34,226 bases of DNA from the NCBI GenBank assembly GCA_913009825.1, contig CAJVYQ010000060.1:1-34226 (forward strand). Direction: 5' to 3'. This DNA is from an uncultured Deferribacteres bacterium. GTDB taxonomy: Bacteria; Zhuqueibacterota; JdFR-76; DREG01. The notes below the pieces were generated by a model. That model had not been told where the DNA came from. It was given only the letters and a program-made list of their open reading frames with translations, and ran no database searches. The position numbers were made by a program, and so were the translations under genes. Shown in pieces: positions 9,453-29,018 of the stretch. How positions within the stretch are numbered: position 1 is the stretch's first letter; each line of letters begins with the position of its first letter.

Positions 9453-9471
9453 TTTTCCTCCATTTTTGAAT

Positions 9472-11000: not shown

Positions 11001-11115
11001 TTCAACCTAAATTGAGCGATTCCCAACCCCAAATTGCCACCTGATAGGTGTCATGTCATTCAGCCTGCCTGCTGCAGGCTGAATGACATGAGAAATGCTC
11101 AGTTTAGGTTCAACT
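11001..11115. repeat. MITE-like element with 17-bp central hairpin
   Basis: Outer ends TTCAACCTAAATTGAGC (11001-11017) and GCTCAGTTTAGGTTCAA (11097-11113) are inverted copies, 15 of 17 positions. Inside, a perfect 17-bp stem (11052-11068 with 11074-11090) has a 5-base loop. No T-run follows it on either strand. It lies between the glycosyltransferase stop and the phosphotransferase start and would be transcribed if these genes share a transcript. The rest of the 252-base gap holds no gene. Confidence 0.75.
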
Positions 11116-11121
11116 AAAAAC

Positions 11122-12159
11122 CTAATGATGCGATTTAAACAGCCCCACCCAAAAGCCAAAACCGAAACTCAACTGCATCATTATAAATGCAAGCGGAAGC
11201 ACCGGCAGATGTTTCCATCCGCTGCGAGAGGCGGTGGTCAGTGTGGCAACGGTTAAAAATAATACGTAAAGAAGCAACAGGGCCATAAAAAATGGTTTCA
11301 TACTTGCACTAAAAAATGAAAATATACCGGTAACCAACAGAGATAATACGAACATAGGCGGAATCAGATGGAGCAGTTTGAGCGCATCGATATGTTTTTT
11401 AACCACGTTAACGCGAAAGATGCCGTAACGAAAAAACTGTTTTCCCAGTCTCAGCAAATTTTTTCGCGGCAGATAATAAGAAACAATCTCAGGCGAAAAA
11501 TAGATTTTATGACCCGCTTTACGAATGCGCCAGTTCAGTTCCGCATCTTCGGAAATAATTTTCTCTTCTTCAAAATAACCGACCTCGTCGAACAGACTGC
11601 GATGGTACGCCGCATAAACTACCGTATCCACGAATCCGGCATTTTTGCGGTAGCGGTACGGCGCGCTCATGATGCCAAATGGGGACCCCATGGCATACCC
11701 GATGGCCTGCTGCACATAAGTTTCACCCAGGTTAATCTGTGTGCCGCCAACACAGGGCACCGATTGTTGGCGCATGTACCTAATGTTTTTTGTGATAAAA
11801 TCCTGTTCCACTTTTGTGTGAGCGCCCAAAATGACAACCACTTCGCCGGAAGCGGCTTTGATGCCGATATTCAATCCTCTGGGTGTTATGCGGTCCGGAT
11901 TGGAGAGTAGTTTCATATTCGGATGAGCAATTGCATATTCCTGCACTATCTCATCGCTGCCGTCCGTGGAAGCGCCGTCGACAACGCAAATTTCTATCTT
12001 ATTAGCCGGATAATCCTGAGCAAAAAGCGAAGCCAGACAAACGGAGATGTTGTCCCTTTCATTAAACATGGGGATCACAACCGAAACCAACGGCTGTTCC
12101 GAAGAAAGCAGGTTTTTTTCTGTCTTATTTACCAAAAGTGTCACAACATCATTTTTCAT
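11122..12159 (-). CDS. glycosyltransferase family 2, ExoA-like
   Basis: The 345-residue protein probably adds a sugar to a lipid-linked polysaccharide repeat unit at the cytoplasmic membrane face. The GT-A domain begins at about residue 24 with VSVVIPMFNERDNI, then VVDGASTDGSDE, and later EDAELNWRIRKAG, which supplies the acidic acceptor/metal motif. After about residue 265 come three hydrophobic helices, matching the ExoA class of integral-membrane GT2 enzymes in succinoglycan-type clusters. AUG 12159 has GGA about seven bases upstream. It is followed by the priming transferase and preceded, 51 bases away, by the dehydrogenase. Donor and linkage are unknown. Confidence 0.92.
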   Translation of the reverse strand: MKNDVVTLLVNKTEKNLLSSEQPLVSVVIPMFNERDNISVCLASLFAQDYPANKIEICVVDGASTDGSDEIVQEYAIAHPNMKLLSNPDRITPRGLNIGIKAASGEVVVILGAHTKVEQDFITKNIRYMRQQSVPCVGGTQINLGETYVQQAIGYAMGSPFGIMSAPYRYRKNAGFVDTVVYAAYHRSLFDEVGYFEEEKIISEDAELNWRIRKAGHKIYFSPEIVSYYLPRKNLLRLGKQFFRYGIFRVNVVKKHIDALKLLHLIPPMFVLSLLVTGIFSFFSASMKPFFMALLLLYVLFLTVATLTTASRSGWKHLPVLPLAFIMMQLSFGFGFWVGLFKSHH

Positions 12160-12210
12160 TCAAATTCCATCGAATACAGGGGATCAAAAAGAAGAAAAAC
12201 AGATCGATTC

Positions 12211-13224
12211 TCAATCCAGACTATCTACATTCACGACGATGCCATTGTGGTTCATGGAATATTCCGCCGCTTCCAGTGCTTTCACCACGCGTAAACCGTT
12301 GGCGCCGTCGGTTTTTGGCACGGTTCCTTCCTGACAACAGGTGATAAAATGATCCATCTCTTTGCTTAGCGGTTCAAAAGAGTCCAGACGGGGACTGAGC
12401 ACATCGCCCGAGCGGTAACTAAGATGATATTCGCCGAATGTTTCCGGGTCTTTGTAATCTACGCCTTTGTCGTAAATTTTCACCTTTTCGATATTTTCAG
12501 TATCGTCATAAACCAGCATTTTGTTGGCGCCGACGATGGTTGTCCGCCGCAATTTACTGGGCGCCAGCCAGCTCAACTGCACATTGGCGATGCAGCCGGA
12601 GGCAAATTCCAGGTTCACAAAAGCCACATCGGGAATACCGGGCTGGACAAAATCACGCCCCATGGCAGAAACACGCACCGGTTGTTCTCCCAGCCAGTAA
12701 AAGATACTGGAAAAATCGTGCGGCGCCAGATCCCAGATCACGCTCACATCTTTCTGATGCAGGCCCAAATTCACGCGGGAAGAGCTGATATAGAACAACT
12801 CCCCCAACTCGCCTTTTTCAATCAGCTCTTTGATTTTCAACACGGGCGGGCTGTATTCAAAGGTGTGTCCTACCATAATTTTGCGCTGCGCCTGCTCCGC
12901 CAGAGCAATGAGATTCTCCCCCTCTCGCCGGGAAGAAGTAAACGGCTTTTCGACAAACACATGCTTCCCCGCCTGCAATGCCTGCTTTGCCAGGGGATAA
13001 TGGAAAGAGACGGGCGTGGCAATAATCACTGCATCGATTCCGTCGTCATCCAGCACCTGTTGAAATTGAGTTGTAACCTCCACAACCGGATAACGGCTTT
13101 TAATTTTATTCAACTTGCTTTCATCCAGATCGCAGGCAACCAACCGGTCGCAGCCAGGCAGTTCGTACAGATTGCGTAATAAATTAGGCCCCCAGTAACC
13201 CAGACCAACGACAGCAATATCCAT
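12211..13224 (-). CDS. Gfo/Idh/MocA family NAD(P)-dependent sugar dehydrogenase
   Basis: The 337-residue cytoplasmic oxidoreductase has an N-terminal Rossmann fold (GLGYWGPN at 7-14), the family EKP motif at 92-94, and a C-terminal substrate domain with VIWDLAPHDFS near residue 165. Members of this GYWGPN subgroup lie in many surface-polysaccharide clusters and are often annotated as UDP-N-acetylglucosamine 3-dehydrogenases, although I cannot confirm the substrate. It is the first gene of the polysaccharide block in transcription order. With the DegT aminotransferase downstream it gives the oxidise-then-aminate logic for making a 3-amino sugar. AUG 13224 has a weak AAGAG site. Confidence 0.9.
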   Translation of the reverse strand: MDIAVVGLGYWGPNLLRNLYELPGCDRLVACDLDESKLNKIKSRYPVVEVTTQFQQVLDDDGIDAVIIATPVSFHYPLAKQALQAGKHVFVEKPFTSSRREGENLIALAEQAQRKIMVGHTFEYSPPVLKIKELIEKGELGELFYISSSRVNLGLHQKDVSVIWDLAPHDFSSIFYWLGEQPVRVSAMGRDFVQPGIPDVAFVNLEFASGCIANVQLSWLAPSKLRRTTIVGANKMLVYDDTENIEKVKIYDKGVDYKDPETFGEYHLSYRSGDVLSPRLDSFEPLSKEMDHFITCCQEGTVPKTDGANGLRVVKALEAAEYSMNHNGIVVNVDSLD

Positions 13225-13649: not shown

Positions 13650-15425
13650 TCAGTGAACCTTCTTTATAATTTCTTCTTTGTTAAAATCCAAAATTATTTC
13701 CTCTTTCCCGTGTTTTACTTTTAAAACACGATCATTTCCTTCCAGGTAAGGACTGTCAAAAAGGGGCATTTTGCTCAGATCAACAAACTTGCCGTTCAGA
13801 TAGCGTCGATCCGGAAAACGGAACTTCATCTCATCCCCGGAAGATGTTGTGTATTTTACTTTCACCTGGCTTTCCAGCTTGCTGAGATCAAGTTTGGTTC
13901 GCTCCATGCTGTCTTTAAAATCTTGCCAACTTTTGAAGTCGGCGCTCTCGAAAACTTCGGTTATCACCCCGTTTTGTAAATGGGGGCTGCGGAACCGGAA
14001 ACAGGTTTTCTCTTCGTGCCAGGTGCCCGGCTGCAGCGGCCGCACGGCGATGTATGCCTCGCCGCCCCGGCAGAATATCCAGCCGTTTTCGCCTTCTTCC
14101 CGCTTTTTCAGGCTTTTAGGGAAATAGTAATCGATATGTTTAAAAGGCGTTTGCGCATCTAAGTTGTACAGCACAATGATGCAGTTTTTATGCTGAAATG
14201 TTCTTTCGTAGGGCGAGCCGCCGGTCCATTTATCCTCTTTGTTGTAGGTGCCCTTCGATTTGATCACCTCGGAAACCATCACTTTCAGCTTTTCCGGGAA
14301 AAACATACCCAGCTCTTTATATGAGTAATACGGATGCAGAGAAAACAGTTCGTCCGCTTTCATCCTATCGTCGTAAAGATAGGTGACGCCCCAGGTGTGG
14401 ATTTGAATAGGTTGCTGCAAACCGCCGTCCAGGCAGCCTAACGAGAAATTTTTGCTCATGTAATTGGTTTTGTAAACTGGCGGATTCATCTCTTTGTCAA
14501 AACGGATGATGTTACGCACGCGTTTCTTCTCAAAAGATACGTACGGTTTGTCCCGGTCGGTGGCAATTCTTTGGATCACTTCCGGAAGCCGGTAACCGGA
14601 CAGGGCGGCAAATACAGTGAAACTCAGGGAGGCATTTTTAGGAAACGGCGTATCGCCGAAAAAGATGTAGCCGAAACCAACGGATCCGTCTTTGCTCGGA
14701 TCAAGAATATCCTGGTCGTAGACCCGGCTGTGGCCGCCGGTGTAAGCGCCGCCCAGATAATCGCCGGCATAATCCGCCAATAGCCAATTCAGCGCCATCT
14801 CCGCCTTCTGTTTCATCACCGGATCCCGCACAAATTCATACAGGACAAACAGCGAACCCAGGTAAACCTGCAAATAATGGGGGGAATCAAATTCGCCCTG
14901 TCCGATTGTGGTGGCGATTTCCAGCCACGAATTTAACAGCCCCTGTGCATCCTCATAATTTTCCTGCGAACTTCTGCCGTTTATCCATTTGTCGGCCGTC
15001 ATATCCGGCCAGGTTTGTGCGGCCAGCAAAAGCGCTGTGTGCCACATCACCCAGTGATTCTCCGTGTCACCGCGGTAGGGCCAGTAAGTTTGCCACACCT
15101 GTTTCGCCTTTTGGTGAATTTCACTGGTCCAGTAATCATATCCGTACAAATAACAGCCCATCATGGGCAGACTGTAAAACATGTCGCCGGATGGATTCTC
15201 CAATTGAATCATAAAATCTTTTCTGCATTTTTCGATGTTCTGCCCCAGGCGCAGCCGGGCTGCGATCTGAAAAAAATTGGCGACCTTGCCATCCGGTGTG
15301 GCATAATAATGCAAAATTTTATTTTTTCTAACTTCGATTCCCTGCCCCCAGGTATGGTTTGTTGTTTGAGCCGAAACAACTGCAGCGATAAATCCGACAA
15401 AAAGCAGCATTGTAATATATTTCAT
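13650..15425 (-). CDS. secreted protein, possible alpha/alpha-toroid glycan-active protein
   Basis: The 591-residue protein has a clear Sec signal peptide (MKYITMLLFVGFIAAVVSAQ, cleavage near residue 19-20). The N-terminal half is helical with aromatic-rich repeats (GYDYW, ENHWVMWHTALLLAAQTWP, a GGAYTGGHSR motif), reminiscent of (alpha/alpha)6-toroid enzymes such as polysaccharide lyases. The C-terminal third looks beta-rich, ending in short strands such as KVKHGKEEIILDF. I do not recognise a named family, and catalytic residues cannot be assigned. GAGG lies six bases before AUG 15425. It follows the beta-propeller gene by 88 bases. A role in processing or binding an extracellular polysaccharide is inferred from fold hints and from the flanking glycan genes. 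Confidence 0.75.
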   Translation of the reverse strand: MKYITMLLFVGFIAAVVSAQTTNHTWGQGIEVRKNKILHYYATPDGKVANFFQIAARLRLGQNIEKCRKDFMIQLENPSGDMFYSLPMMGCYLYGYDYWTSEIHQKAKQVWQTYWPYRGDTENHWVMWHTALLLAAQTWPDMTADKWINGRSSQENYEDAQGLLNSWLEIATTIGQGEFDSPHYLQVYLGSLFVLYEFVRDPVMKQKAEMALNWLLADYAGDYLGGAYTGGHSRVYDQDILDPSKDGSVGFGYIFFGDTPFPKNASLSFTVFAALSGYRLPEVIQRIATDRDKPYVSFEKKRVRNIIRFDKEMNPPVYKTNYMSKNFSLGCLDGGLQQPIQIHTWGVTYLYDDRMKADELFSLHPYYSYKELGMFFPEKLKVMVSEVIKSKGTYNKEDKWTGGSPYERTFQHKNCIIVLYNLDAQTPFKHIDYYFPKSLKKREEGENGWIFCRGGEAYIAVRPLQPGTWHEEKTCFRFRSPHLQNGVITEVFESADFKSWQDFKDSMERTKLDLSKLESQVKVKYTTSSGDEMKFRFPDRRYLNGKFVDLSKMPLFDSPYLEGNDRVLKVKHGKEEIILDFNKEEIIKKVH

Positions 15426-15513: not shown

Positions 15514-16518
15514 TTATTTTATCACCAAATCGGCGACATGCGTGCCGTCCAGTGCAAACGGTTTCCAGGTTGCGCCATTGTCATTGGATTGCAAAATACC
15601 TTTGTTTGCCGTACCTGCGAAGAGAGTTTTTTCCTTATCCGGATGAATGATGATGTCGTAAACTGCCACGCCTTTCAGTCCGTTTGTCAGCGATTGCCAG
15701 GTTTTTCCTCTGTCGTTACTGCGTAAAACGCCATATTCAAAAGTTGCCGCGAAAATGCGCTGCAGATTTTTTCTGTCCACTTTGATGCCGTATATCGTTG
15801 CTTTTGCCGCATCGCCGGCGGCCTGTATCCACGATTTTCCCCGGTTGTCCGAAATGAAAATACCGTTATCTTCCGTGCCCAGATAAAGCCGGTCCGCTTC
15901 TTGGAAATCCTGGGCGATAGCATTCACTGCATAGTTGAAATTTGCAACGCTCTTAAACGACTTCCCGCCGTTGCGGCTGATGAGCAGGCCATCTTCCTCT
16001 CCCAGATAAATCCGCTCCGGTTTTTCGATGTCCGGCGCCAAACCGGCTACGAATCGTTTGGTGAGTCGGCGGAAATTTTCACCGTATTCCGTGGATTTGT
16101 ACAATCCGTACGCTGTGCCGATGTAAACAATTTTGGCATTTTGCGCAACGGCGGCGAGTTCCAGCACTTCGGTTATTTGCCATCCCGTGGTTACCCGCCA
16201 TTTTTTGCAAAAATTTTTGCTGACGAAAAAACCGTTGCCGTTGGCGCAGTAGATCAGACCCTGTGCAACATCGGGAAAAACAGCCACAGAAAAAGTGCGC
16301 ATGTTTTTGAAACCAATATTTTTTACATTCGATCCGTTATCGGCGACGCAAAACAGACCGGTACCGGGATTTTTTGCGCCAACGGTGAAACTCTTGTTGG
16401 AAATAACACCGGCGTAAATATTTCTCCTCCCGGTTTGAGCCGATACTTTTGCCGGGTTCACGGAAAAGGCGAACAGGACCATCAGGATCAGCCAAATCGA
16501 ATTAAACTGGATTTTCAT
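15514..16518 (-). CDS. secreted Asp-box (BNR/VPS10-like) beta-propeller protein
   Basis: The 334-residue protein starts with a Sec signal peptide ending near VSAQT (residue 28). The mature part repeats a sialidase-type Asp-box pattern: SRNGGKSF, SDNRGKSW, SNDRGKTW and SNDNGATW, spaced about 45 residues apart, each followed by a strand such as IYLGEEDG, LYLGTEDNG or LFAGTANKG. This is a seven-bladed-propeller pattern like VPS10/YCF48 photosystem-assembly-type folds. Such repeats are structural and do not imply sialidase activity; the conserved sialidase arginines are not seen. Probably periplasmic or exported. It is the first of two adjacent genes for secreted proteins. Confidence 0.82.
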   Translation of the reverse strand: MKIQFNSIWLILMVLFAFSVNPAKVSAQTGRRNIYAGVISNKSFTVGAKNPGTGLFCVADNGSNVKNIGFKNMRTFSVAVFPDVAQGLIYCANGNGFFVSKNFCKKWRVTTGWQITEVLELAAVAQNAKIVYIGTAYGLYKSTEYGENFRRLTKRFVAGLAPDIEKPERIYLGEEDGLLISRNGGKSFKSVANFNYAVNAIAQDFQEADRLYLGTEDNGIFISDNRGKSWIQAAGDAAKATIYGIKVDRKNLQRIFAATFEYGVLRSNDRGKTWQSLTNGLKGVAVYDIIIHPDKEKTLFAGTANKGILQSNDNGATWKPFALDGTHVADLVIK

Positions 16519-17126
16519 GTGTTTGTACTCCGTTGGTCAGAATTTTCCTGGACGGTTTTTGTAACGGTTCAGGCTAATATTCAGGTGAGTTTAATAAAAG
16601 TTTAGAGTCTTTTTACATCCCCCGTACCCCCCCGGGAGCTTAGCATTACTCATAAGTTTTCCTTGACTTTTGGATTTATATTGTGAGCAGAAAACATTTA
16701 TGGTTCTTCGTTTGGTTTCGCTTTAATCTTTTTATCTCGAAGGGATATATTGAAAATAGCCCCGGCATTCATGCCGGGGTCCGGTTAAGGTTATCGTTTT
16801 TCTTTCCGTCCCGTTAGGGGACGATTGGAACATATTATAGTCATAAGACCGGTTTCAACCGTCCCAACGGGACAAAGATATGTGTGTTATTTATTTCCCC
16901 GGCATGAATGCCGGGGCTATTTTCAAATTGTCCTTTGGGACATAAAAACCATCTTCAACCTGGCGGTTGTATATAACCGGGGGATTGTTGGAGAGTGTCG
17001 AGTCCAAGATAATGCCGGGAAATTAGGATTATTACGGCCTTTCTCCCAAAAAGTTGTGGGTAATGATAAACCTCGATGCGGGAGAACGGGGGATGTTCTC
17101 TCCATTCCCAATTCGCAGCTTCGTAA
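16519..17126. other. 608-base gene-free stretch with stacked palindromes
   Basis: The stretch separates the five-gene mannosidase cluster from the two secreted-protein genes. It contains the element at 16751-16925 and, around 16926-17126, further short inverted motifs (for example GGTTGTATATAACC). A TTGACT near 16662 on the plus strand has no partner at promoter spacing. No convincing gene is seen; a 145-codon plus-strand frame (16825-17262) runs through the repeat and into the amidohydrolase shadow. Confidence 0.6.
16751..16925. repeat. 175-bp element with 29-bp perfect inverted ends, each itself palindromic
   Basis: Bases 16751-16779 are the exact reverse complement of 16897-16925. Each arm contains its own near-perfect palindrome, CCCCGGCATTCATGCCGGGG or its complement. 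The centre has two more hairpin-forming motifs (GTCCCGTTAGGGGAC and GTCCCAACGGGAC), so the element contains palindromes at three nested levels. No coding sequence is inside. Confidence 0.88.
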
Positions 17127-18815
17127 TCACAATTTCACCCGCGCTAAAATCCGCTCCATGTTGCGCCCCAGAATATTACGCTTATCCTGCTCCGTAATAT
17201 CGGCATACGCCACCCAACCGAATTGCGGGGACGGGTCCCGCATGGGAGAATCCGAACCGTAAATCACCCTTTCCGAACCCACTTCCCGAACCATATATTC
17301 AATGCTGCCGTTTAGCACGGAAGTGTAGGTGATTTCCAAAAAACAGTTGGGGAATTGTTTTGCCAGCGCCACGTGTGTCCGGGCTGTTTGCCAGCTCCAG
17401 CCGGAATGGGCAAGCAGAAAAGAAATGTGGGGAAAACGCGCCGCCAGGTCCCGCATTTCCGCAGTAAAATGATCGGATGGGTGCATCAGAGCAAACAGAA
17501 AATGTTCGTTGCCGTACCGCCACCAGGGTTCGAACCGCGGATCATTGTAGGGGATGGCCATTTTGGGGAAATAGGGTTTCATGCCGGGTAGCCGCTTCTC
17601 TCTGTGATAATAATCGCACTCTTTTTGCCAGTCCGAAATATAGTTGGGATCAAGTGCGGCATAGCCCACAAGTTGGTCCGGGAACCCATGGACCGCCTGA
17701 ATAGTATCTTCATTGCCTAACCTGTAATCGCCCCAGATAGCTGTCCAGGAACTGATGCACGTTTTATTGACGCCAATTCTGCGGTTTCTTTCCACTACCG
17801 CCGCCGCATCGGCACGGTTCATGGCTGCCATGGCGGCGCCGTAACCCCCTTTCTGTGTAATATGCGCATGTGCGTCGATTACGATCATGTCAGCCACAGG
17901 TTGTGCCGCCAGCGCCAATTGCAGAATTTTGTCTTCCGGTTCTTTTTGCGGGTATGAAGGCAACGGTTCCGTTATCTTCAGCAGCCGTTTTAAATTACCC
18001 CCGGCGATGGCGCGCTTTTGCTCGTCGGTAATGTCGGCATAATCTACATAAGCCCGGGCGGCGCCTATGCTTTTCTGCGGCCACTGGGAGCCAAAGAGCA
18101 GTCGCCCGCAGCCGATTCGGCTGCACCAAAATTCCAGCATTCGGTTGCCCTGATAATTGGAAAACTCAAAATGCAGATTTCGAAAACGATCTGCCATCGG
18201 AATCAATGTGCGGGTGGCTTCCCAGCGAACGCCGTGCAGCAGAACCGGCAGCCGGGGGAAACTGCCGCACAGCCAGGCCAGTTCATCCCAGGTTATTTGC
18301 ACATCATTTTCGTACTCGCCGCAATCGACAATCAGAAGAATGCCCGCCTCCTGCAGATGGAAAAGTAGTTCGCCCAGTGTATGTTGATCGACGGAAAATT
18401 TGTAGGTGCGGGGGAAAATTTTCATTGCGTGCACATTCTCTTTTTCCATTTCACGCACCAGCTCTCTTGGATGGGGAAACTCGCCGGAATGATGCGGCAT
18501 TCCCACCCGGCAGGGAAACAAACGCGGATGTTTCCTGCAAACCTTCATAACAATGGGATTGCCAACAACAGGATGCGTCTCGGCGGCCTGATGGGCATAC
18601 ACCAGCGCGCCGTCAATCCGGCACCGTTCCATTTCGGCAAGCAGTTCTTCGGTGCGCCAGGGAGCCCGAATGTCCCTTCCCGCGTACCTGCCGATGGCGG
18701 CATAACAGTTGAAGTATTGAATATGGTTATCCACGGAAAATTTCAAATTCCTCTGTTTTAAATCCAACTTAATTGGAGGGGTACGGAGGTTGTTAAAAAG
18801 CTTCCAACCAATCAA
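17127..18815 (-). CDS. tandem amidohydrolase-2 protein with one degenerate and one intact domain
   Basis: The 562-residue protein contains two amidohydrolase (PF04909-like) TIM barrels. The second (about residues 310-562) has the metal motif DAHAH (H316, H318), H445 in ALMHPSD, H470 in LLAHSGW and D522 in YGSDSPM, so it is probably an active hydrolase or decarboxylase. The first (about 33-285) has the same layout (LLHGVRW, FGSQWP, DITDEQKR) but NCYAA where HxH is expected and Q244 instead of the catalytic Asp, so it is probably inactive. The frame opens at UUG 18815, with AGGT about six bases upstream; UUG or GUG codons near residues 24-28 are alternatives. It lies 69 bases after the class III aminotransferase gene and is the last gene of the cluster. 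Substrate unknown. Confidence 0.85.
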   Translation of the reverse strand: MIGWKLFNNLRTPPIKLDLKQRNLKFSVDNHIQYFNCYAAIGRYAGRDIRAPWRTEELLAEMERCRIDGALVYAHQAAETHPVVGNPIVMKVCRKHPRLFPCRVGMPHHSGEFPHPRELVREMEKENVHAMKIFPRTYKFSVDQHTLGELLFHLQEAGILLIVDCGEYENDVQITWDELAWLCGSFPRLPVLLHGVRWEATRTLIPMADRFRNLHFEFSNYQGNRMLEFWCSRIGCGRLLFGSQWPQKSIGAARAYVDYADITDEQKRAIAGGNLKRLLKITEPLPSYPQKEPEDKILQLALAAQPVADMIVIDAHAHITQKGGYGAAMAAMNRADAAAVVERNRRIGVNKTCISSWTAIWGDYRLGNEDTIQAVHGFPDQLVGYAALDPNYISDWQKECDYYHREKRLPGMKPYFPKMAIPYNDPRFEPWWRYGNEHFLFALMHPSDHFTAEMRDLAARFPHISFLLAHSGWSWQTARTHVALAKQFPNCFLEITYTSVLNGSIEYMVREVGSERVIYGSDSPMRDPSPQFGWVAYADITEQDKRNILGRNMERILARVKL

Positions 18816-18884
18816 ATATTACCTGAATATTCACCAAATATGTTTCTAATTTTCATTTCACCGCTGCCGATAACCGTCTCTTTT

Positions 18885-20087
18885 TCAGAGTAATTTCTTC
18901 AATGCTTCTCTTATTTTTTCCAGTGTTTCATCGATATCGCTTTCCTTGTGAGAATAACTGATGAACCAGCGATCATTGGCGAAGATGCCTTTTTCGTAGA
19001 GGAGAGAGAAAAGCCTGTTTTGCCGGCGACTGTTTTCTTTTTCATTACCGGTATTGAATTGAATGAACGGCGCAGGAGGCAGACCCGCGGCATAAGCGGG
19101 CGTACCGGTTTCCCGGATGATTTCAGCAAAACCGTCCTGTAACCGTTGTCCCATTTTGTGAATCTGTTCCTGAACCGGTTCGTTCTGCATTACGGCCATT
19201 GTAGCCTTCCCCGCGGCCAGAGATAAAGTCTCTCCCGCATAAGTGGTTGTGATGATGGTTTTTTGCAGCGCTTGCATGTATTCCCTTTTGCCGGCAAAAG
19301 CAGACAGAGGATACCCGTTTGCCAATGCCTTTGCATAAGCCGCTAAATCCGGCGTGACGCCGTAATATTCCTGTGCGCCCCCGGGGGCCAGGCGAAATCC
19401 GGTGAGCACCTCGTCAAAAATCAGCAGGGCGCCGTATCGGTCGCATTTTTTGCGCAGCAGTTTAAGGTATTCCTCACCCGTGTCTTCATTCCATTCGTAC
19501 GGCGCAACAACGGCGCAGGCCAGCCTTTCTCCCGCTTCATCGAACGCCGTTTCAACCGCCTGCAGATCGCCGTAGGCAATATCACGGATATATTCCCGCA
19601 ACACTTGGGGCACGCCGGGGGTAGGCCAGTTGAAAGCAAAAAGATCGTGGTAGCCGTGGTAGCCGCTGCTTAAAATGTGCTCCCTTCCCGTGCAGGATCG
19701 CGCCAGTCGGACGCAGGCTGTGCAGGCATCGGCGCCGGTTTTCATGAAACGGATCTGTTCAAGCCAGGGCACATTGGCCATAATCGCTTCCGCCGTTTCC
19801 AGTTCCAGCGGACTGGCCATGCTGAACAGAACGCCTTTTTCCATCTGGGCGCGAACAGCGCGGTCAACCTCCGGGTACCGGTAGCCTAAAATGATGGGAC
19901 CCAACGAACAGCGGTAATCGATATATTCCCGGTCGTCCAGATCCCACATGCGGCAGCCGTTTGCCTGTTTGATGAAAGGCGGCATAAATTCTTCCCAGTC
20001 CGGATTGAGCCGTTTAGCGTTGGTTTGGGTTGCCCATGGGATGCGGTTCAGAGCCTTATCGTACTGCTTTTTATTTTTTGACGTCAT
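18885..20087 (-). CDS. class III aminotransferase, glutamate-1-semialdehyde aminomutase-like
   Basis: The 400-residue PLP enzyme has the fold-type I class III markers: MKTGADACTACVRLAR near residue 115, SGYHGYHD near 141, FDEVLTGFR with D225, YAKALANGYPLSAFAGK with PLP lysine K253, and TTYAGETLSLAA after it. It resembles HemL-type aminomutases but has no haem-pathway neighbours. Inside a glycan-catabolic-looking cluster it more likely aminates or deaminates a keto-sugar or sugar-acid derivative; similar enzymes act in antibiotic and nucleotide-sugar routes. Its start overlaps the end of the GH38 gene by 17 bases, so translation is probably coupled. The product is unknown. Confidence 0.88.
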   Translation of the reverse strand: MTSKNKKQYDKALNRIPWATQTNAKRLNPDWEEFMPPFIKQANGCRMWDLDDREYIDYRCSLGPIILGYRYPEVDRAVRAQMEKGVLFSMASPLELETAEAIMANVPWLEQIRFMKTGADACTACVRLARSCTGREHILSSGYHGYHDLFAFNWPTPGVPQVLREYIRDIAYGDLQAVETAFDEAGERLACAVVAPYEWNEDTGEEYLKLLRKKCDRYGALLIFDEVLTGFRLAPGGAQEYYGVTPDLAAYAKALANGYPLSAFAGKREYMQALQKTIITTTYAGETLSLAAGKATMAVMQNEPVQEQIHKMGQRLQDGFAEIIRETGTPAYAAGLPPAPFIQFNTGNEKENSRRQNRLFSLLYEKGIFANDRWFISYSHKESDIDETLEKIREALKKLL

Positions 20088-22785
20088 CTCTTTTATTTTG
20101 TCCGAATTTTAATCTGATGGAAACGATTTGATTGGCCGCGGCGGTAAACTGAATTTTGTTTCTATTTTCAATCGATAACTCCTTTTCATCTGTTTCATTG
20201 AGACGGGTGAGCGTGGCCGAGGCCAAATATCCTTTTGTCTGTAAAATTCCGTTTACGGGATTGGCCGTTGGATTGTAACACCGCAGAATGTATCCCTTTT
20301 CATCTTCGGCCGGTTTGAAAGTGGAAAAAACCAGCGCATCCGGCGAGAGTGAAATGCCGAATGAATTCCAATTTCTCACCGCAATGCCGCTTCTGCGCAC
20401 GGTTCGACAGGGAAGATGAAAAGCTTCCAGTTGTCTGTTGATCGGCGCGTAATCCCTGAATGCCTGTGCGGAATGGGGGATGACCGCGTACTGAAATGTG
20501 TGTTTCCCCCGGCATTGCGCTTCTTCCGCTTCCGTGATCCAGCCGGCGTCGCCGCCGGGACGTGTAAGCAGGTCTCCGCCGGATAATCTGCCGACGCAGC
20601 GCAGCAGGGTGATGGCCAGTGTGCCGGAGCGGCCGGTTTTTAATTCATACTCCGGCAATCCCTCCGTGGCAACGGTGAGTCCGTTGTCACCGTCCAGAAT
20701 GGTTACGCCGCGCTGCATGGGATGGACGGAACTGGGAACCTCGATTTTAAAATCGGCGGGATCCACTTCCGTATGCTCCCGTTTTGTGATGCAGAACTGG
20801 CTGTCGGCATAACTCACATCGGTGCGAAAACCGGAGGGGAAAAGCACTCGCAGGCGGTGATCTTTGACAATGTTGTCAATTTTCGTCTCAAACTCGATGC
20901 GCGGTTGGTTATGATAGATGAAAATAGTGGACGTTATCGGCACAGCGGTCATTTCCTGCCGCCGCTTTTTACGGTTTTCCGTCAAACTTTTAGGCAGTCG
21001 CAGTTTCAGGTATATGCACAGGGCAGCGCGTAATGGACCGGTTTCAACCAATTTAATTTTTGCGATAACGTCTGTGGAAGTGATGATTTTATCTGCCGGG
21101 GGATAGGAGTAATTGTATTCATCGCCGGCATCGCCGCCGTCTTCAAATATGTGGAAGCCGGAAAAATGTTGGCTGTTACTTTTGTCGGTCACATTGATGG
21201 AACCGTTGGGCGCCGCTTCCACTTTCAAAAAGTCGTTTTCGATGAAATTGCTGCCGGTTTTCAATTTGCTTTCATAGCTCGGGAATCCATCGGCAGGTTC
21301 TGTTTTCAATTGAACCAATCCGAGTCCCGGAATCTGTTTAACATCTAACAGCAGAGTGAATCTTTCCACCATGTTTTTGGTCGGGTAGGAATAATCGCTG
21401 TAGCGCAGGCTGTAGGTTTCCGGATCATGCTGCAAAATTTGATATGATATTTCGCGGCCGTTCGTATCTTTTATTTTGAACCCCGAAATCAACGGCGGTT
21501 TGGGTGCAGGTTTCAGATCGGGATTGAGTCCCACAACGGTTTTCTGTCTGAAAAATTCAAAGGCCGCCTCAACCGGATGGCTCACTTCTCTTGTCTGCGG
21601 ATTGAAGATCAGCACATTCTCCCGGCCGGTGAAAGCATCCGGGAAAAAATGACGCACCGATTTTTCCAGAACCGCTTCGCCGATTTGTGCGCATTTATCG
21701 AACCGGGTTTCCATCTCCCGGTGCACTTTATCGATGCTGCACCCGCAAATGGAATCGTGCGGATGATTTTGCAGCAGCAGTCTCCAGCCCCGATCAATCA
21801 TGGGGAAAAGATGCTCGCGGCCGGCTAGAGTCGCCCAGGCGGCTAACGGTTCAATATAACGGCTCAATAACTTTTCACAACGGTGATTGGCCTGTTTCAA
21901 ATAGATGCGGGAAGAATAGACTCCGGAATTCACCACAAACGCGTGACGGTAACCCCACCTCAGTTCACCATTCACCTGTTTGAGTGAGGTTGGATTTTGC
22001 TCCAAATACTGTTTCACCGCGGCGACGTAACCGGGGATGTTACTGTGAATAAATTGTCCGTCGCAATTTTTCGTCATGGTTTGCAGCGCCTGCGGCAGGT
22101 ACGGTTCCGGGAAATGATGGTCGCCGCCGTTCATGCACAGGCGGTGCGGTGTGGTTGCCCGCGGAGCCAGAATTTCTTTTAACTGATTTCCCTTTTTGAT
22201 GAACGCTTCCGTGGAGTTTTCGCCGATATACGCATCGCCGTAGCCGTTGGGCGGCAGATGAATCATCAGAACCGTGGAGCCGTCCGGAGATTGCCAGGTA
22301 TATTCCGATTTCTCCTGCCCCGGTTCGCCGCCGAAACCGCGGTAGACAATGGCGGTGTCCATGTTAAATCCGCACAGTATAGCAGGCATCATGGCCAAAT
22401 GACCGAAGGAATCCGGGATGTAACCAACCTGCATAGCGCACCCGCCGAACTTTTGTGCAACTTTTTGTCCGAACAGCAGATTGCGGATGGTCGATTCCCC
22501 GGAGACCAGAAATTCGTCCGGTAATACGTACCAGGGACCTATGGAAATCTTCCCGGCGCGAATATACTTTTTCAGTTCTTCGGTTCCTTCCGGAAAAATC
22601 CCGGCGTAATCTTCCAGAATAACGGTCTGTCCGTCCAGCGTAAAATATCTGTAATCGGAATTGGTCTGGAAAATATGTAAAAGCGAGTGGATCAGATCGG
22701 CCAGATCCAACCGAAATGTTTCAAAAGTTTTGTACCATTCCCTGTCCCAATGGGAATGGGAAATAAAATGATAGATTGGTTCCAA
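20071..22785 (-). CDS. glycoside hydrolase family 38 alpha-mannosidase
   Basis: The 904-residue enzyme is of the MngB-like bacterial GH38 class, about 900 residues. Zinc and substrate motifs are visible: HSHWDREWY (H10, D14) at the N-terminus, GYIPDSFGH with nucleophile D125, and NHPHDSICGCSID near residue 340. The C-terminal beta-sandwich domains follow. No signal peptide is seen, so it probably acts in the cytoplasm on imported or phosphorylated mannosides, hydrolysing with retention. The frame opens at UUG 22785, since no in-frame AUG lies near the HSHWD motif; AAAGAGAAAG lies about 8-12 bases upstream. It overlaps the aminotransferase gene and follows the isomerase-like gene by 70 bases. 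Linkage specificity is unknown. Confidence 0.92.
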   Translation of the reverse strand: MEPIYHFISHSHWDREWYKTFETFRLDLADLIHSLLHIFQTNSDYRYFTLDGQTVILEDYAGIFPEGTEELKKYIRAGKISIGPWYVLPDEFLVSGESTIRNLLFGQKVAQKFGGCAMQVGYIPDSFGHLAMMPAILCGFNMDTAIVYRGFGGEPGQEKSEYTWQSPDGSTVLMIHLPPNGYGDAYIGENSTEAFIKKGNQLKEILAPRATTPHRLCMNGGDHHFPEPYLPQALQTMTKNCDGQFIHSNIPGYVAAVKQYLEQNPTSLKQVNGELRWGYRHAFVVNSGVYSSRIYLKQANHRCEKLLSRYIEPLAAWATLAGREHLFPMIDRGWRLLLQNHPHDSICGCSIDKVHREMETRFDKCAQIGEAVLEKSVRHFFPDAFTGRENVLIFNPQTREVSHPVEAAFEFFRQKTVVGLNPDLKPAPKPPLISGFKIKDTNGREISYQILQHDPETYSLRYSDYSYPTKNMVERFTLLLDVKQIPGLGLVQLKTEPADGFPSYESKLKTGSNFIENDFLKVEAAPNGSINVTDKSNSQHFSGFHIFEDGGDAGDEYNYSYPPADKIITSTDVIAKIKLVETGPLRAALCIYLKLRLPKSLTENRKKRRQEMTAVPITSTIFIYHNQPRIEFETKIDNIVKDHRLRVLFPSGFRTDVSYADSQFCITKREHTEVDPADFKIEVPSSVHPMQRGVTILDGDNGLTVATEGLPEYELKTGRSGTLAITLLRCVGRLSGGDLLTRPGGDAGWITEAEEAQCRGKHTFQYAVIPHSAQAFRDYAPINRQLEAFHLPCRTVRRSGIAVRNWNSFGISLSPDALVFSTFKPAEDEKGYILRCYNPTANPVNGILQTKGYLASATLTRLNETDEKELSIENRNKIQFTAAANQIVSIRLKFGQNKRDDVKK

Positions 22786-22817
22786 ATTGCATTCTTTCTC
22801 TTTTTAAACTTTTTAAT

Positions 22818-22849
22818 CCCGTTTTTAAATCCCGGGGATTAAAAACGGG
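22818..22849. repeat. loopless palindrome between two cluster genes
   Basis: A 32-base palindrome (CCCGTTTTTA... with ...AAAAACGGG, one bulge) centred on CCCGGGG starts six bases downstream of the isomerase-like stop. On the plus strand a T-run follows, but both genes here lie on the minus strand, where no T-run follows. It may cut or attenuate the transcript between the two genes, or be another dispersed palindrome. Confidence 0.6.
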
Positions 22850-22855
22850 GGTTTT

Positions 22856-23647
22856 TTATTTTTTTAGAAAATTCTTCACGATTTCCAGATTTCGTTTGGA
22901 ATTTTCAATCAGCGGCAGGCAGTGCGTCTCGATGGTGATATGCTCCACCGGCTTATCCCGCTGCAGGGAGGCAATTTGTCCCGGCCAGTCCACTACGCCT
23001 TCGCCAATGGGCACACATTCCAGCAACGCTCCTTTTACGGTGTCTTTCACATGGACATTGACGATCCAATTTTTAAGGGCATTATATCCATCCGGGAAGG
23101 GCGTTTCCGGCGTTCCCAATGCGTTGGCGGGATCCCAGTTTGCCCGCAGCGCGGGAGAATTTACTTTGGCTAAAAGTTGCGCTGTGTTGCTGCCGGTATC
23201 GAACCAAAATCCGGGCTCGTTTTCCACAGCGACGGTCATCCCTTCTTTTTGCGTCAATCCGGCCACTTGCCTGAAGATTTCGACAACCCGTTCTTCATCT
23301 TCCGGTTTGTCATCCTCCAATCTCTGCACGCCGAAAACAATGATCATCTGCGTGCCAAATAATTTGGCCAGCCGGAAAGTTTCGGGCAGTGTTTTTTTCA
23401 TTTCCCGCTGAAGCTGATCCTGATCGGCCAGCGTGCCTTTGAAAGTGCCCGGCGAAAGTGCCGTAATCCGGATGCCGTGTTTTTTCTGCAAATCCAGGAT
23501 GGTTAGCACATCTTTCTCACTGATGTCCGGTATCCGGTTGGCGCCGATCATCCTTAATTCGTAATCTTTTATTCCCCAGGAAACGCCAATGTCGACGGCT
23601 TCCGTCACATCGGCGGAAATTTCGTCCGTTACAAATCCGATTCGCAT
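22856..23647 (-). CDS. xylose-isomerase-like TIM barrel (sugar phosphate isomerase/epimerase)
   Basis: The 263-residue protein has the AP-endonuclease-2 / xylose-isomerase-like barrel pattern: MRIGFVTDEIS at the start, AVENEPGFWFDTG near residue 165 supplying a metal Glu, ANWDPANALGT near 192, NVHVKDT near 215, GEGVVDWPG near 235 and ITIETHC near 250. These residues bind a divalent metal and isomerise or epimerise sugars. The frame opens at GUG 23656 overlapping the upstream stop, but AUG 23647 has GGGA about four bases upstream and gives the natural family start. It is directly downstream of the Tat-exported aminotransferase gene. The substrate is unknown; the family includes inosose dehydratases and tagatose epimerases. 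Confidence 0.88.
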   Translation of the reverse strand: MRIGFVTDEISADVTEAVDIGVSWGIKDYELRMIGANRIPDISEKDVLTILDLQKKHGIRITALSPGTFKGTLADQDQLQREMKKTLPETFRLAKLFGTQMIIVFGVQRLEDDKPEDEERVVEIFRQVAGLTQKEGMTVAVENEPGFWFDTGSNTAQLLAKVNSPALRANWDPANALGTPETPFPDGYNALKNWIVNVHVKDTVKGALLECVPIGEGVVDWPGQIASLQRDKPVEHITIETHCLPLIENSKRNLEIVKNFLKK

Positions 23648-23655
23648 TTTTCCCA

Positions 23656-24936
23656 CTATAATTTTTGTGCAGCTTTCACGGCATGCAGTACTTTTTCTAC
23701 TTCGTTAAAAGAGTTGTAAAGATGGAACGAAATCCGTATCCCGTTCAATCCTCCTTCGTAAATGCCGCGGGTGCGCAGGTTGTATTTTTCAGCCAGAAAT
23801 TTTTGCAATTCTCCGTATTCAATATTTTTCAGTTTGAAGGTGATCATGGCGCTGTGTTCCGCCGGATGCTGCGGCGATAAAACCTGCGCGCCGATGCGGT
23901 TCAATCCATCGATAAACGCCGCCGCCATGGCGTGATCCCTTTTCCAGATGTTGTCGATACCGATTTTGAGTAAAAAATCCATCGCCGCGCCCAAGCCGAC
24001 AAAAAGCGGCACATTCACCGTGCCGTACTCATAACGCTGGGCGGTAGAATTGATGTGGAATTCGCCGGTGCGCATATCAAAATGTCCTTCGTTGGAATAA
24101 GCGCCGACAAATTTTGCATCGATCAGATCCAGGTACTCTTTCCTAACGTAAATCAGGCCTGTGCCCTTTGGCCCTATCAGCCATTTGTGTCCGCTGGTGG
24201 CGTAGGCATGACAGCCGGTTTCATGCACATCGACAGGCAGCATACCGGGCGATTGGGCGCCGTCGATGAAATACCACAGGTTATATGCTTTAGCCAGTTC
24301 GCCGATCTTTTTCACCGGCATCACCTGTCCCGAGGCTGTGGTTACATGGGAAATGCTGATTGCTTTTGTTCGTTTGTTGATCAGCTTTTCGATGCGATCG
24401 ATATTCTCCTGCGCCGAGGTCATGGAAGGGACAAACACCTTCATTTTAATGCCGTCCCGCTTTTGCCGCGCCAGCCAGGAGATAGTGTTGCCCACATGTT
24501 CGTGGGTAGATGTGATCACTTCATCCCCCTTTTCAAACGGGAACCCGTTGCAGACAATGTTCACTCCCTCGGTAGTGTTTCTGGTGTAGGCCATCTCATC
24601 CGTTTCGCAGTGGAAAATTGCGGCGGCTTTCTCTTTAATATCATGCCAAAGTTGGTGATTGTGACCCGGTTCGCAAATCTTTTCCAGTTCGTCCATTTTA
24701 CTTTTAACCGCATCGATGCAAACGTAGGGTGATGCGCCCAATCCGCCGGTGTTCAGATAGGTACGTTCTGTTGTCAGTGGAAATTGGTCACGAATCAACG
24801 ACCAGAATTTTTCATCACTGGGATCGATATGGCCGTTTACACGGGGCAGTAACGCAGGAAGATTCTTAAACTTCGGGAGTGAAAAAATGCCGGCGAATCC
24901 ACCGCCGGCCAATTTAAAAAAATTACGCCTTTTCAT
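23656..24936 (-). CDS. Tat-exported class V aminotransferase-fold enzyme
   Basis: The 426-residue protein starts MKRRNFFKLAGGGFAGIF, a twin-arginine-type signal with RR at 3-4, FK and a weakly hydrophobic stretch, so it is probably exported folded with its cofactor. The rest is a class V PLP fold of the isopenicillin-N-epimerase / cysteine-desulfurase-like branch: TYLNTGGLGASP near residue 59, AYTRNTTEGVN near 116, FIDGAQSPG with D225, and TSGHKWLIGPKGTG with Schiff-base lysine K251. The end shows RTRGIYEGGLNGIRIS. No catalytic cysteine loop typical of desulfurases is visible, so epimerase, lyase or aminotransferase activity are all possible. It is the first gene of the five-gene cluster in transcription order. 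AAAGGA lies a few bases before AUG 24936. Confidence 0.86.
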   Translation of the reverse strand: MKRRNFFKLAGGGFAGIFSLPKFKNLPALLPRVNGHIDPSDEKFWSLIRDQFPLTTERTYLNTGGLGASPYVCIDAVKSKMDELEKICEPGHNHQLWHDIKEKAAAIFHCETDEMAYTRNTTEGVNIVCNGFPFEKGDEVITSTHEHVGNTISWLARQKRDGIKMKVFVPSMTSAQENIDRIEKLINKRTKAISISHVTTASGQVMPVKKIGELAKAYNLWYFIDGAQSPGMLPVDVHETGCHAYATSGHKWLIGPKGTGLIYVRKEYLDLIDAKFVGAYSNEGHFDMRTGEFHINSTAQRYEYGTVNVPLFVGLGAAMDFLLKIGIDNIWKRDHAMAAAFIDGLNRIGAQVLSPQHPAEHSAMITFKLKNIEYGELQKFLAEKYNLRTRGIYEGGLNGIRISFHLYNSFNEVEKVLHAVKAAQKL

Positions 24937-25236: not shown

Positions 25237-25700
25237 AGCATCACTATTCTTATTTTGTCGATTATTGCACCACTAAAAAGCCAAAATAAAGAAATAGCGA
25301 TGCTGGTAAAAACAGTACTAAATCATTGTCTTAAATTCCACAGTTTTGTTTTCTCGAAAGTAAGTTCAGACCTCGTTAAATTTGATAAATATTAGGTTGA
25401 ATAAGCGGACAAAGATCATCATAAATTTGCACTATATATTGCGTAAGTACTTGTTTTTTAGTTTAAAGTCAAACATGCAGTGTTCAATTATTCATGGATT
25501 TTCTCACAATTAACTAGTAAACAAGAACTTAATGAACAATAAAATACCTGATTTAACGAGGTCTGAAGTTTGGTTGAGAACGGTCACAATGAGAGCATTA
25601 TTGTAAATATTACGGCATGAAAGAGCAGATAACTCGGATTTAGATGAAATGAAAAAAGCAGCAAATACCTTAACAAATCACAAAGAATAGACCTCGTCGA
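25237..25700. mobile_element. decayed insertion-sequence-like region
   Basis: A 21-bp imperfect inverted pair (25237-25257 with 25282-25304) runs into a 31-codon transposase-like start. A perfect 17-bp inverted pair follows (TTCAGACCTCGTTAAAT 25365-25381 with its complement 25551-25567), and a third copy of its AGACCTCGT core lies at 25689-25697. No intact transposase is present. The arrangement suggests the worn remains of one or more elements in the 782-base gap 24937-25718, where no functional gene was found. Confidence 0.4.
25300..25395 (+). pseudogene. 31-codon relic resembling the start of an ISL3-type transposase
   Basis: The open frame begins MLVKTVLNH and continues with KFHSFVFSKV before a UAG at 25393-25395. 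ISL3-group transposases I know often start with a similar MLLKTILN...KSFVY stretch, so I read this as a truncated N-terminus. The following DNA carries no zinc-finger or DDE motif. The match is from memory of the family, not from alignment. Confidence 0.35.
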
Positions 25701-26615: not shown

Positions 26616-29018
26616 TTAAACACTATAATTTATATTAATTTTTAATTTCCCCAAATAAATTGCCAGGCAGGCGATAGCCAAATAACAAATTACACCCAGT
26701 AAAAGCGCATAAGAAAATCCGAACAAAATACCAATTATCATCGTTAAAGCCGAGCCGACTACCGAAGCCAATCCGTTGACTCCCCACATCCAGCCAATAT
26801 ATTCTTGAACAAAATAGTCTTTCATCAGACGGATAGACAGTGGAAACGGAAATCCCAATACAAAGCCAAGTGGGATTAAAATCATAATTGTCAGCGTTTT
26901 GGGTGAATACGATAAACCGGAAAATAGTTGATCGAAAACAAATAAGAAAATGATTGTCAGAATTGAAACCACTATTGCCGCTATAAAAATAAACACATTC
27001 AGGCGTTTCTTTATGAGAGAACTAATGAAGCTTCCAATTCCTGTGCCTAACAGCAAAGAAAATAACAGCACTGTTAGTGTTAAAACCGGTTGTCCAAGGT
27101 AAAGTGTCAACTTTTGGAACAGGGCAATTTCGAGTAACATAAACCCTGCTCCCAACAGAAAAAAGAGCCAGAGAAAACTTTTTAGCTGGGGAAATTGACA
27201 AAAATGTTTTAAAATGATTTTTTGCCCGCCATTTGGTTGATTTTTAACAAAAAGAGGAATGGTCATCAATACAAAGATTACAATGATAAAAATTGAAAAG
27301 AGGCCAAATGGTTCCGGTAATCCTGGTTCAAAATTATAAAAGAACGGACTGTCATCAGTAGTAGGTTCTATATTTATTGGGATGCCACTCAATAATTGTT
27401 GTAACGTTAACTTCCCGTTTGCTATATCGACAAGAATCTGGTCAAACATCCGCCATTCAAAATCGATTTGCAATTTTTCCGAAGAGGTCAGGGTCATTTG
27501 TTTGACAAACGGAATGTAAAAATTTCCTTGATCAAATCTAAGCTTATGGCTTATTTGGTGTCTAATTTTGCTCGCCAAACTGTCGAATGGTTCCTTCTTT
27601 ATTACAACTGTCGGCATCATTCCGGAGCTAATTGTGTAAAGGTGTTTCATCGCTTCAGCCTGACTTATATTTTGCTTTTCAAATGCTGTCAGTGCGAGCC
27701 CTATCAAACGATATATCTCCGCTTCGTTATGAGCGACGATGACGATTCGGCCTTCCGGCGTAAGATGATTCAGGAAATCCTCAAACGCCTCTACGGTGAA
27801 AAGAAAATTTTCCGTTAATGCAAATCCTTCGCGGCTGCGGCTGCTTTTGGTGATCGGAATCGAGAGCATAATCAGGTCATATTGATTGTGGGTGGTGCGA
27901 AGATAGTTGCGTCCTTCCTGAATTACAACCCGGACATTTGGATTTGAAGTATAAATACCGCCGTTGAATTTTTCATATTTTTTCACCAATGCAACCAGAT
28001 CCGGATTGACTTCGACGGCCGTGATATCTTTTACTCCGCCAAGAAGAGAAACCACAACATCGCGGCCGCCGCCGGGACCGATAATCAGCGCGTTGTTTTT
28101 TTCGTTCTCTTTCAAAAAATAAAACGGAAAGAACAGGCCAAAATGATTGACAAGATACGCCTGAGATCGCTCATTACTGAGAAGGGAATCCAGATTATAC
28201 ATAACAGTACCGGCAGCTCCATCGACAAAAAGAACCATTTCATTTGGTGAAACCGGACTTCGTAAAAGATCCGTCCGCCCAAAAGCGCTCCATCGGCTTT
28301 CTACAATTTTAGCCTGTTCTTTTGGATTTTTCAACATACGGTACATATCTTTGTTAAAATCGGTGGCAATGGGCACCTGAGTAGAAAAATCTTCCGGTAA
28401 TAAAAAAATGACAAGAAGAATCGCCGCAACAATTAATTTTCTGGCAAACGACCACAGACTTTCAGTCATGCTAATTAAAATTGCACCGGTGACAGCGATA
28501 AGAGCGGTTACATAAACCGCTTTAACTCCGCCAAAAATGTTCAGAAAATAAACGGAAGCGAGAACGCCCATCGTCGCGCCGAGCAGATCGAAACCATATA
28601 AAATGGAACTTTTTACCGGATATTGTTGAAAAATTGCCGAAAGAGTCAAGCCGGCAAAAAAGAAAGGAAGTGTTGCGATCAAAATATAAATCCACACCCG
28701 GAAAGACGCCCAGCCGGTACTCTCATAAATTGGTAATTTAATAATGAGAAACGCAGATAAAGAAATTAAAAAAGCAAACGTTACCGCTGTACTGCCAAGC
28801 CCAAACCCGGGCATCTTTTTTTGCCACACTCTTAACATCATACCGCCCAGCCCCATACCCAGTAATGAGAAGGAGATTACAGCGAAAACAAAATGATAAG
28901 ACAGCATTACAGAAAAAATTCTTGTGAGAATAATTTCAAAAGATAATACACTGCCTGAGATAAAAGCGGTTGCAATTACAACAAGCCGGAACCGATAAAC
29001 CCGGTTGTTTTGGTTCAT
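26616..29018 (-). CDS. multi-pass membrane protein with spermidine-synthase-like domain
   Basis: The 800-residue protein has N-terminal membrane helices (about residues 12-210), a soluble Rossmann methyltransferase-like domain (about 250-540) and C-terminal helices (about 570-800). The middle domain has the SAM-binding GPGGGRD at 314-320, acidic AVEVNPD near E336 and EGRNYL at 368-373. The segment where aminopropyltransferases carry their catalytic Asp (DVI..D..DP) reads DLIMLSIPITKSS (381-393) and lacks it, so polyamine synthesis is doubtful. Membrane-embedded proteins of this kind are widespread and mostly uncharacterised. AGGAAGA precedes AUG 29018. It lies between the rhodanese and YHS genes of the copper island, which may or may not be functional. 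Confidence 0.85.
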   Translation of the reverse strand: MNQNNRVYRFRLVVIATAFISGSVLSFEIILTRIFSVMLSYHFVFAVISFSLLGMGLGGMMLRVWQKKMPGFGLGSTAVTFAFLISLSAFLIIKLPIYESTGWASFRVWIYILIATLPFFFAGLTLSAIFQQYPVKSSILYGFDLLGATMGVLASVYFLNIFGGVKAVYVTALIAVTGAILISMTESLWSFARKLIVAAILLVIFLLPEDFSTQVPIATDFNKDMYRMLKNPKEQAKIVESRWSAFGRTDLLRSPVSPNEMVLFVDGAAGTVMYNLDSLLSNERSQAYLVNHFGLFFPFYFLKENEKNNALIIGPGGGRDVVVSLLGGVKDITAVEVNPDLVALVKKYEKFNGGIYTSNPNVRVVIQEGRNYLRTTHNQYDLIMLSIPITKSSRSREGFALTENFLFTVEAFEDFLNHLTPEGRIVIVAHNEAEIYRLIGLALTAFEKQNISQAEAMKHLYTISSGMMPTVVIKKEPFDSLASKIRHQISHKLRFDQGNFYIPFVKQMTLTSSEKLQIDFEWRMFDQILVDIANGKLTLQQLLSGIPINIEPTTDDSPFFYNFEPGLPEPFGLFSIFIIVIFVLMTIPLFVKNQPNGGQKIILKHFCQFPQLKSFLWLFFLLGAGFMLLEIALFQKLTLYLGQPVLTLTVLLFSLLLGTGIGSFISSLIKKRLNVFIFIAAIVVSILTIIFLFVFDQLFSGLSYSPKTLTIMILIPLGFVLGFPFPLSIRLMKDYFVQEYIGWMWGVNGLASVVGSALTMIIGILFGFSYALLLGVICYLAIACLAIYLGKLKININYSV

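Follow-up and report, generated by a model that had tools for sequence, protein, structure and literature searches.

A conserved seven-gene cluster of an uncultured Zhuqueibacterota bacterium as a candidate locus for acidic glycan breakdown

In the xanthan clusters, or polysaccharide utilization loci (PULs), of Microbacterium sp. XT11 and R. UCG13, an external lyase is found together with a cytoplasmic GH38 enzyme devoid of a signal peptide (PMC10881899). The catalytic sets of uronate-cleaving lyases have been described as N201/H202-Y258-H413, or Y450 as the base, in Alg17c (PL17), N186/H187-Y239-H405 in PL39, and N192-Y246-H401 in the PL35 enzyme GAGase II (PMC12088678, PMC4765187). SpGH38 of Streptococcus pyogenes (PDB entry 2wyh) is an alpha-1,3-mannosidase with the metal ligands His13, Asp15, Asp125, and His351 (PMC2815779), and PvdN, a pyoverdine-tailoring enzyme of Pseudomonas, is the precedent for a pyridoxal phosphate (PLP) enzyme that is exported by the twin-arginine translocation (Tat) system and acts in the periplasm (PMC6206403). 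Here, we compare with these systems a seven-gene cluster on contig CAJVYQ010000060.1 of an uncultured bacterium of the Zhuqueibacterota, as the phylum KSB1 has recently been named (PMC11683472). The whole contig, hereafter the window, comprises 34,226 bases and is part of a 5.1-Mb draft genome.

Five genes of this cluster had been described in an earlier note made from the sequence alone, namely, in order of transcription, those for a Tat-exported PLP enzyme (AT5), a sugar isomerase-like TIM barrel, a GH38 hydrolase, a class III PLP enzyme (AT3), and a double amidohydrolase (Amido). The ORF coordinates and Pfam matches confirmed all five genes and their domain assignments. The limits drawn by the note were too narrow: the genes for two exported proteins, a BNR/Asp-box repeat protein (BNR) and a protein of 591 residues (H591), extend the set in the order and on the strand found in candidate division KSB1 bacterium OFTM356 (locus L032), and these are the members most informative on function. 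OFTM356 is the closest named relative at the locus; a single full-collection scan with AT3 yielded just one named relative.

We propose, with a probability of roughly 60%, that the cluster serves the catabolism of an acidic heteropolysaccharide with uronate residues, probably one that also has alpha-mannose. Because the known xanthan clusters are built with a uronate lyase acting outside and a GH38 inside, a glycan both acidic and mannose-containing is the reading that we rank first. Direct support comes from the gene content, the conservation of gene order, co-occurrence, the export signals in the sequences, and intact active-site motifs. The window cluster differs from the xanthan clusters in that it has no GH5/GH9 xanthanase, GH88, or ABC transporter, its lyase is not a recognizable PL8, and it has in addition two PLP enzymes, the barrel, and the double amidohydrolase. 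With its co-localized, conserved glycan-active enzymes, it is a PUL in the broad sense; no Pfam match to the SusC or SusD of a Bacteroidota-type PUL was found among the larger window proteins. The earlier note knew of no described pathway with such a set, and no description of a cluster so composed emerged from a literature search. Its five-gene observation holds, and its catabolic interpretation, in part supported by our data, was right in outline, as was its placing of part of the chemistry outside the inner membrane, where the exported lyase-like H591 and the Tat-exported AT5 would act.

The predicted lyase H591 and a proposed pathway

H591 matched no Pfam or NCBIfam model, the lyase models included, and neither phmmer nor a 13-row profile found a credible relative among the PDB sequences. 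An AlphaFold2 model based on 13 relatives reached a mean pLDDT of 82, and a Foldseek search with it gave 28 PDB entries at E <= 0.001, without exception chondroitin, hyaluronate, glycosaminoglycan (GAG), alginate, or xanthan lyases. The best match had an E value of 1e-6 with a probability of 1.00, and chondroitinase, PL8, PL17, PL35, and PL33 enzymes were among the matches. The model resembles the helical barrel plus beta-sheet fold of the GAG-lyase superfamily, to which the alginate and GAG lyases of families PL17, PL39, and PL35 belong. The candidate catalytic residues N123, H124, Y184, and H343 are invariant in 13/13 relatives, at a spacing close to the published one, the distance from Asn to Tyr being 61 residues compared with 53–57 in published lyases, and that from Tyr to His 159 compared with 155–166. 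Given as offsets along the Asn-His, Tyr, His series, these are +60 and +159 in H591 and ~+54 and ~+155 in PL17/PL35/PL39. Taken as a prediction from the structural model and the invariant residues, the assignment of H591 as a uronate lyase is a good one. In a sample of 82 genomes of the phylum, covering 23 families, H591 is present in 37, yet it has no Pfam or NCBIfam model, which makes it a good candidate for a new lyase family. A CBM9 domain was matched on 3 of the 13 family members, the longer relatives. The genome of the window has a second locus (L120, G000:C19:1-18000), which encodes an H591 paralog (43%), a BNR protein, an SSF symporter, a heparinase II/III-like protein, and a Gfo/Idh protein; a third, more distant H591 paralog lies in L121 (G000:C37).

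In the pathway that we propose, exported H591 would break the glycan chain beside a uronate through beta-elimination; N123 and H124 would neutralize the carboxylate, and Y184 and H343 would serve as acid and base. BNR, likewise exported, would assist H591, probably as a glycan-binding partner. The oligosaccharides would then be imported to the cytoplasm, sister loci encoding a Na+:solute symporter alongside, and GH38 would take off alpha-mannose there. In the periplasm, AT5 would convert an amino-bearing compound, and an unusual sugar acid, possibly an aminated one, would be degraded to the end by AT3, the barrel, and the second, metal-dependent half of Amido. The fold of H591 is assigned by prediction, and we infer the lyase activity, the substrate, the import, and the whole step ascribed to AT5, AT3, the barrel, and Amido. 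The nitrogen theme would follow from AT5, AT3, and a link to sugar aminotransferases. Of the nitrogen-bearing or acidic sugar suggested by the earlier note, the acidic form is favored by the lyase-like H591, and an aminated form is plausible from the linkage of AT3 with DegT.

Several points weigh against acidic glycan breakdown. The cluster in the window encodes neither a transporter nor an unsaturated-uronyl hydrolase. The genome has two matches to the GH88 family, both on other contigs, and no such match was obtained in G013 and G028, two genomes with cluster genes. Identity between H591 and known lyases is only ~10%, the TM-scores lie at 0.34–0.45, and model confidence is moderate at its presumed active site (block means 76–80). 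The sequences of AT5, AT3, the barrel, and Amido do not reveal their substrates, and GH38 could serve another alpha-mannoside.

Conservation in the Zhuqueibacterota

All seven genes are found in identical order in OFTM356, with protein identities of 50–71%. The five-gene order is present, whole or as pieces at contig ends, in genomes G030, G001, G024, G036, G048, and G053, and it occurs in three families. BNR and H591 lie upstream of AT5 in family f16, the BNR ortholog adjoins Amido in L032, L036, and L052 and adjoins H591 in most other loci, and the BNR-H591 pair flanks Amido in L046, L083, L084, and L085. In L107 and L109, H591 stands immediately ahead of the AT5-barrel pair, even though AT3 and Amido are missing.

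Co-occurrence in other genomes, which the earlier note had named as the test of its proposal, was borne out by this order and by the counts among the 82 genomes. AT5 and the barrel occur together in 32 of them (p = 2e-10 at the genome level, a value that kinship inflates), AT3 is accompanied by H591 in 20/21 genomes, and the tandem amidohydrolase by AT5 in 27/28. Counted by family, the associations of the barrel with H591 (p = 1e-4), of AT5 with the barrel (3e-4), and of the amidohydrolase with AT3 (3e-4) persisted. The GH38 ortholog is the rarest and most dispensable member, being found in 10/82 genomes, all of which carry AT3 and H591, and its association by family was not significant for most pairs; we therefore regard it as a lineage-specific addition. 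AT3, Amido, AT5, the barrel, and H591 are found together in genomes without this GH38, and in L112-L114, AT5 is separated from the barrel by an unclassified protein of 766–777 residues. The key role that the earlier note gave to GH38 is thus not borne out, and we rejected a reading that centers on this enzyme.

Three separate modules recur, AT5 with the barrel, AT3 with the amidohydrolase, and BNR with H591. The first has heparinase-like lyases, GxGYxYP hydrolases, and URO-D family, B12-binding, and RACo-like proteins as neighbors; the second has SSF symporters, a ROK kinase, and MetE-like and URO-D proteins. The third is also found outside the phylum (L137 and L141), near SSF, SMP-30, and enolase-superfamily genes. 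Taken overall, the neighboring genes of the relatives encode SSF symporters, heparinase II/III-like lyases, a sugar-acid dehydratase, an RraA-type aldolase, SMP-30, a ROK kinase, GH116, and GxGYxYP hydrolases. A phmmer search with the heparinase-like protein L032:2823-5135 against PDB sequences gave no credible relatives.

Two further kinds of neighbor were seen beside these modules. The AT5-barrel loci L110 and L111 (genomes G005 and G006) lie next to genes for a corrinoid activator of RACo-like type and for a fumarate-reductase-like protein that binds FAD (both checked with Pfam in L110), along with a corrinoid protein and a TonB-receptor-like protein recognized by sequence inspection only and, in L111, a URO-D-like protein; these neighbors suggest demethylation of the substrate. 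A protein of ~550 residues with no Pfam match recurs near AT5 or H591 (L036:1546-3222, L033, L038, L112-L114, and L122) and is possibly another glycan-active enzyme. The structure model of its 558-residue helical representative, L036:1546-3222, had a pLDDT of 42 and was not used.

Enzymes and sequence features of the window

The coordinates of the cluster members are collected in Table 1.

Table 1. Cluster genes and associated repeat in the window
Feature	Position	Strand	Description
AT5	23656..24936	-	Tat-exported fold-type I PLP enzyme; Aminotran_5 (Pfam 6.6e-63)
Iso barrel	22856..23647	-	Sugar isomerase/epimerase-like TIM barrel, cytoplasmic; AP_endonuc_2 (Pfam 8e-26)
GH38	20071..22785	-	Alpha-mannosidase-type hydrolase, no signal peptide; four GH38 Pfam domains
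AT3	18885..20087	-	Class III glutamate-semialdehyde-aminomutase-like PLP enzyme; Aminotran_3 (Pfam 3.3e-46)
Amido	17127..18734	-	Double amidohydrolase-2 protein; Amidohydro_2 in second half (Pfam 8.5e-20)
Repeat-bearing stretch	16615..17096		Palindromes and 17-nt imperfect end repeats
BNR	15514..16518	-	Exported BNR/Asp-box (sortilin-like) repeat protein; Sortilin-Vps10 (2.1e-18) and BNR repeats (Pfam)
H591	13650..15425	-	Exported 591-aa polysaccharide-lyase-like protein; no Pfam/NCBIfam model

AT5 begins with the twin-arginine sequence MKRRNFFK, the RR of which is kept in six orthologs, and its PLP-lysine motif, SGHKW, is conserved. With PvdN it shares the twin-arginine signal, the class V fold, and, as proposed here, periplasmic PLP chemistry; it differs in scoring 112.9 bits against the PvdN equivalog cut-off of 650 and in having no siderophore genes nearby, and its assignment as PvdN was rejected. 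We also rejected a cysteine desulfurase: although the PLP-binding His-Lys motif is present, the stretch aligned to the Cys loop (RSGHHCA) reads RTRGIYEGG and lacks the catalytic Cys. The barrel fell below the NCBIfam cut-offs for L-ribulose-5-phosphate 3-epimerase. Its ORF opens at GTG 23656, and we took ATG 23647, the start used by its orthologs; from this ATG, the 8-bp gap to AT5 given in the earlier note is correct. The 70-bp gap and the 17-bp overlap given there are both correct.

GH38 has the complete Pfam set above cut-offs (PF01074, the N domain, at 2.1e-30, with the middle, C, and C2 domains PF09261, PF07748, and PF17677). In alignments to bacterial GH38 enzymes of known structure (E values of 1e-120 to 1e-113), its zinc and nucleophile motifs, HSHWDREW, PDSFG, and NHPHDSICGCS, match up with theirs, and the metal-ligand and nucleophile positions of SpGH38 are retained (HSHWD, PDSFG, and NHPHD). 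SpGH38 and the GH38 protein of PDB entry 3lvt show near whole-length homology and share these motifs; SpGH38 acts on N-glycans; the sequence of the window enzyme is distant, and its gene context is another.

Most of the AT3 sequence can be aligned to HemL and related sugar and aminoglycoside aminotransferases, and the PLP lysine is conserved. It differs from HemL in that it falls under the cut-off of every glutamate-1-semialdehyde aminomutase model (TIGR00713, 261 compared with 527 bits) and is shorter in the stretch aligned to the substrate loop, and the aminomutase assignment was rejected. The Amido ORF opens at an upstream TTG (18815), and orthologs begin ~27 codons later; the alignment points to a GTG near 18734 as the probable start, so that the gap to AT3 would be about 150 bp and not the 69 bp that the earlier note had counted from the TTG. 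The tandem architecture proposed there agrees with the protein length and with homologous genes that are split into pairs, but Pfam recognizes the second half only, and it is this half that keeps the HxH motif. Its metal ligands H316, H318, H445, H470, and D522 (numbered from the TTG) are present in 11/12 relatives. HxH is missing from the first half in the window protein and in all aligned relatives except the second protein of L103, the L046 row being incomplete there. That protein (L103:19619-21307), a second double amidohydrolase of the haloarchaeon Halomontanus rarus, is reversed, with HxH in the first half and the metal ligands lost in the second. A profile search with Amido against the PDB found only a predicted amidohydrolase of unknown function.

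The gap between Amido and BNR measures 608 nt in the window compared with 36 nt in OFTM356. It contains two 20-nt palindromes within 40-nt inverted arms together with the end repeats, and pieces of positions 16700-16960 recur in other contigs of the same genome (for example C30:59561-59764, the best match with 98% over 204 nt, and C37:1-114); judged by its sequence, the stretch is probably an insertion of repetitive or mobile DNA that separates the two genes. An Rfam scan of the window gave no match. Promoter and terminator sites were no more frequent in the window than in shuffled sequences, so that such a scan cannot set the operon limits. Upstream of AT5 lies a 20-nt inverted repeat (25362-25381 and 25551-25570) with 95% complementarity and 169 nt between its arms, perhaps a regulatory element or a repeat, and positions 26616-29018 encode an 800-residue protein with a weak spermine-synthase-like domain confined to its middle.

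Alternative readings

Polysaccharide genes adjoin the cluster in the window, which makes biosynthesis or decoration the main rival. The PLP enzymes and the barrel would make an amino sugar of a surface polysaccharide, GH38 would trim it, and H591 would be an editing lyase as in alginate operons. Genes for a DegT aminotransferase, a bacterial sugar transferase, a GT2 enzyme, and Gfo/Idh proteins indeed lie just downstream on the same strand (8349-13224), and the surroundings of an AT3 relative of ~39% identity on a Methylomagnum plasmid look biosynthetic, with transketolase halves and an NeuAc-synthase-like gene. However, the relatives have catabolic genes at this place instead of the 8349-13224 set, and the genes seen to be conserved with the cluster include neither a glycosyltransferase nor a polymerase, leaving biosynthesis unlikely.

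The substrate might also be a methylated or aminated cyclitol or a small sugar acid, with H591 and BNR serving a separate glycan and loosely sharing the locus. The URO-D, B12-binding, and RACo-like genes beside AT5-barrel modules elsewhere are typical of demethylation. On a plasmid of H. rarus, moreover, an AT3 homolog and two double amidohydrolases occur without H591, near genes for DegT, a BadF-ATPase, a tagatose-bisphosphate-aldolase subunit, and a sugar isomerase; an epimerase-family protein also encoded near them shares 51% identity with one whose gene lies close to the KSB1 amidohydrolase gene in L084. This reading is nevertheless unlikely given the positions of H591 and BNR next to AT5-barrel and Amido in the six loci named above and the near-constant company of H591 and AT3.

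A mannosylated small molecule such as mannosylglycerate, which the earlier note had considered, would require a GH38 of MngB type, with the PLP enzymes and amidohydrolase processing the aglycone. Mannosylglycerate hydrolase is the sole NCBIfam match of GH38, but at 518.6 bits it remains far under the cut-off of 1138, and we rejected the assignment. No phosphotransferase system (PTS) gene accompanies it, the conserved H591 and BNR would have no role, and the remaining enzymes co-occur without this GH38, all of which makes this reading quite improbable. Chance or assembly juxtaposition of unrelated genes, for which only the lack of a described pathway speaks, is hardly credible and was rejected, as gene order is conserved at 50–71% identity in separately assembled genomes and co-occurrence is statistically supported.

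Within the preferred reading of acidic glycan breakdown, a bolder combined proposal is tentative: that H591 founds a new uronate lyase family, mostly accompanied by a BNR partner of its own, and, at the same time, that AT3 and the half-degenerate Amido form a new route that removes nitrogen from, and opens, an unusual sugar acid released by this lyase, a route conserved in KSB1 and paralleled in haloarchaea. The recurrent association of AT3 with the amidohydrolase hints at a route for sugar acids, and no described pathway of this kind was found. The KSB1 bacteria are uncultured, and their carbon sources are poorly known; a conserved glycan locus would show what these bacteria of sediments and hot springs eat.

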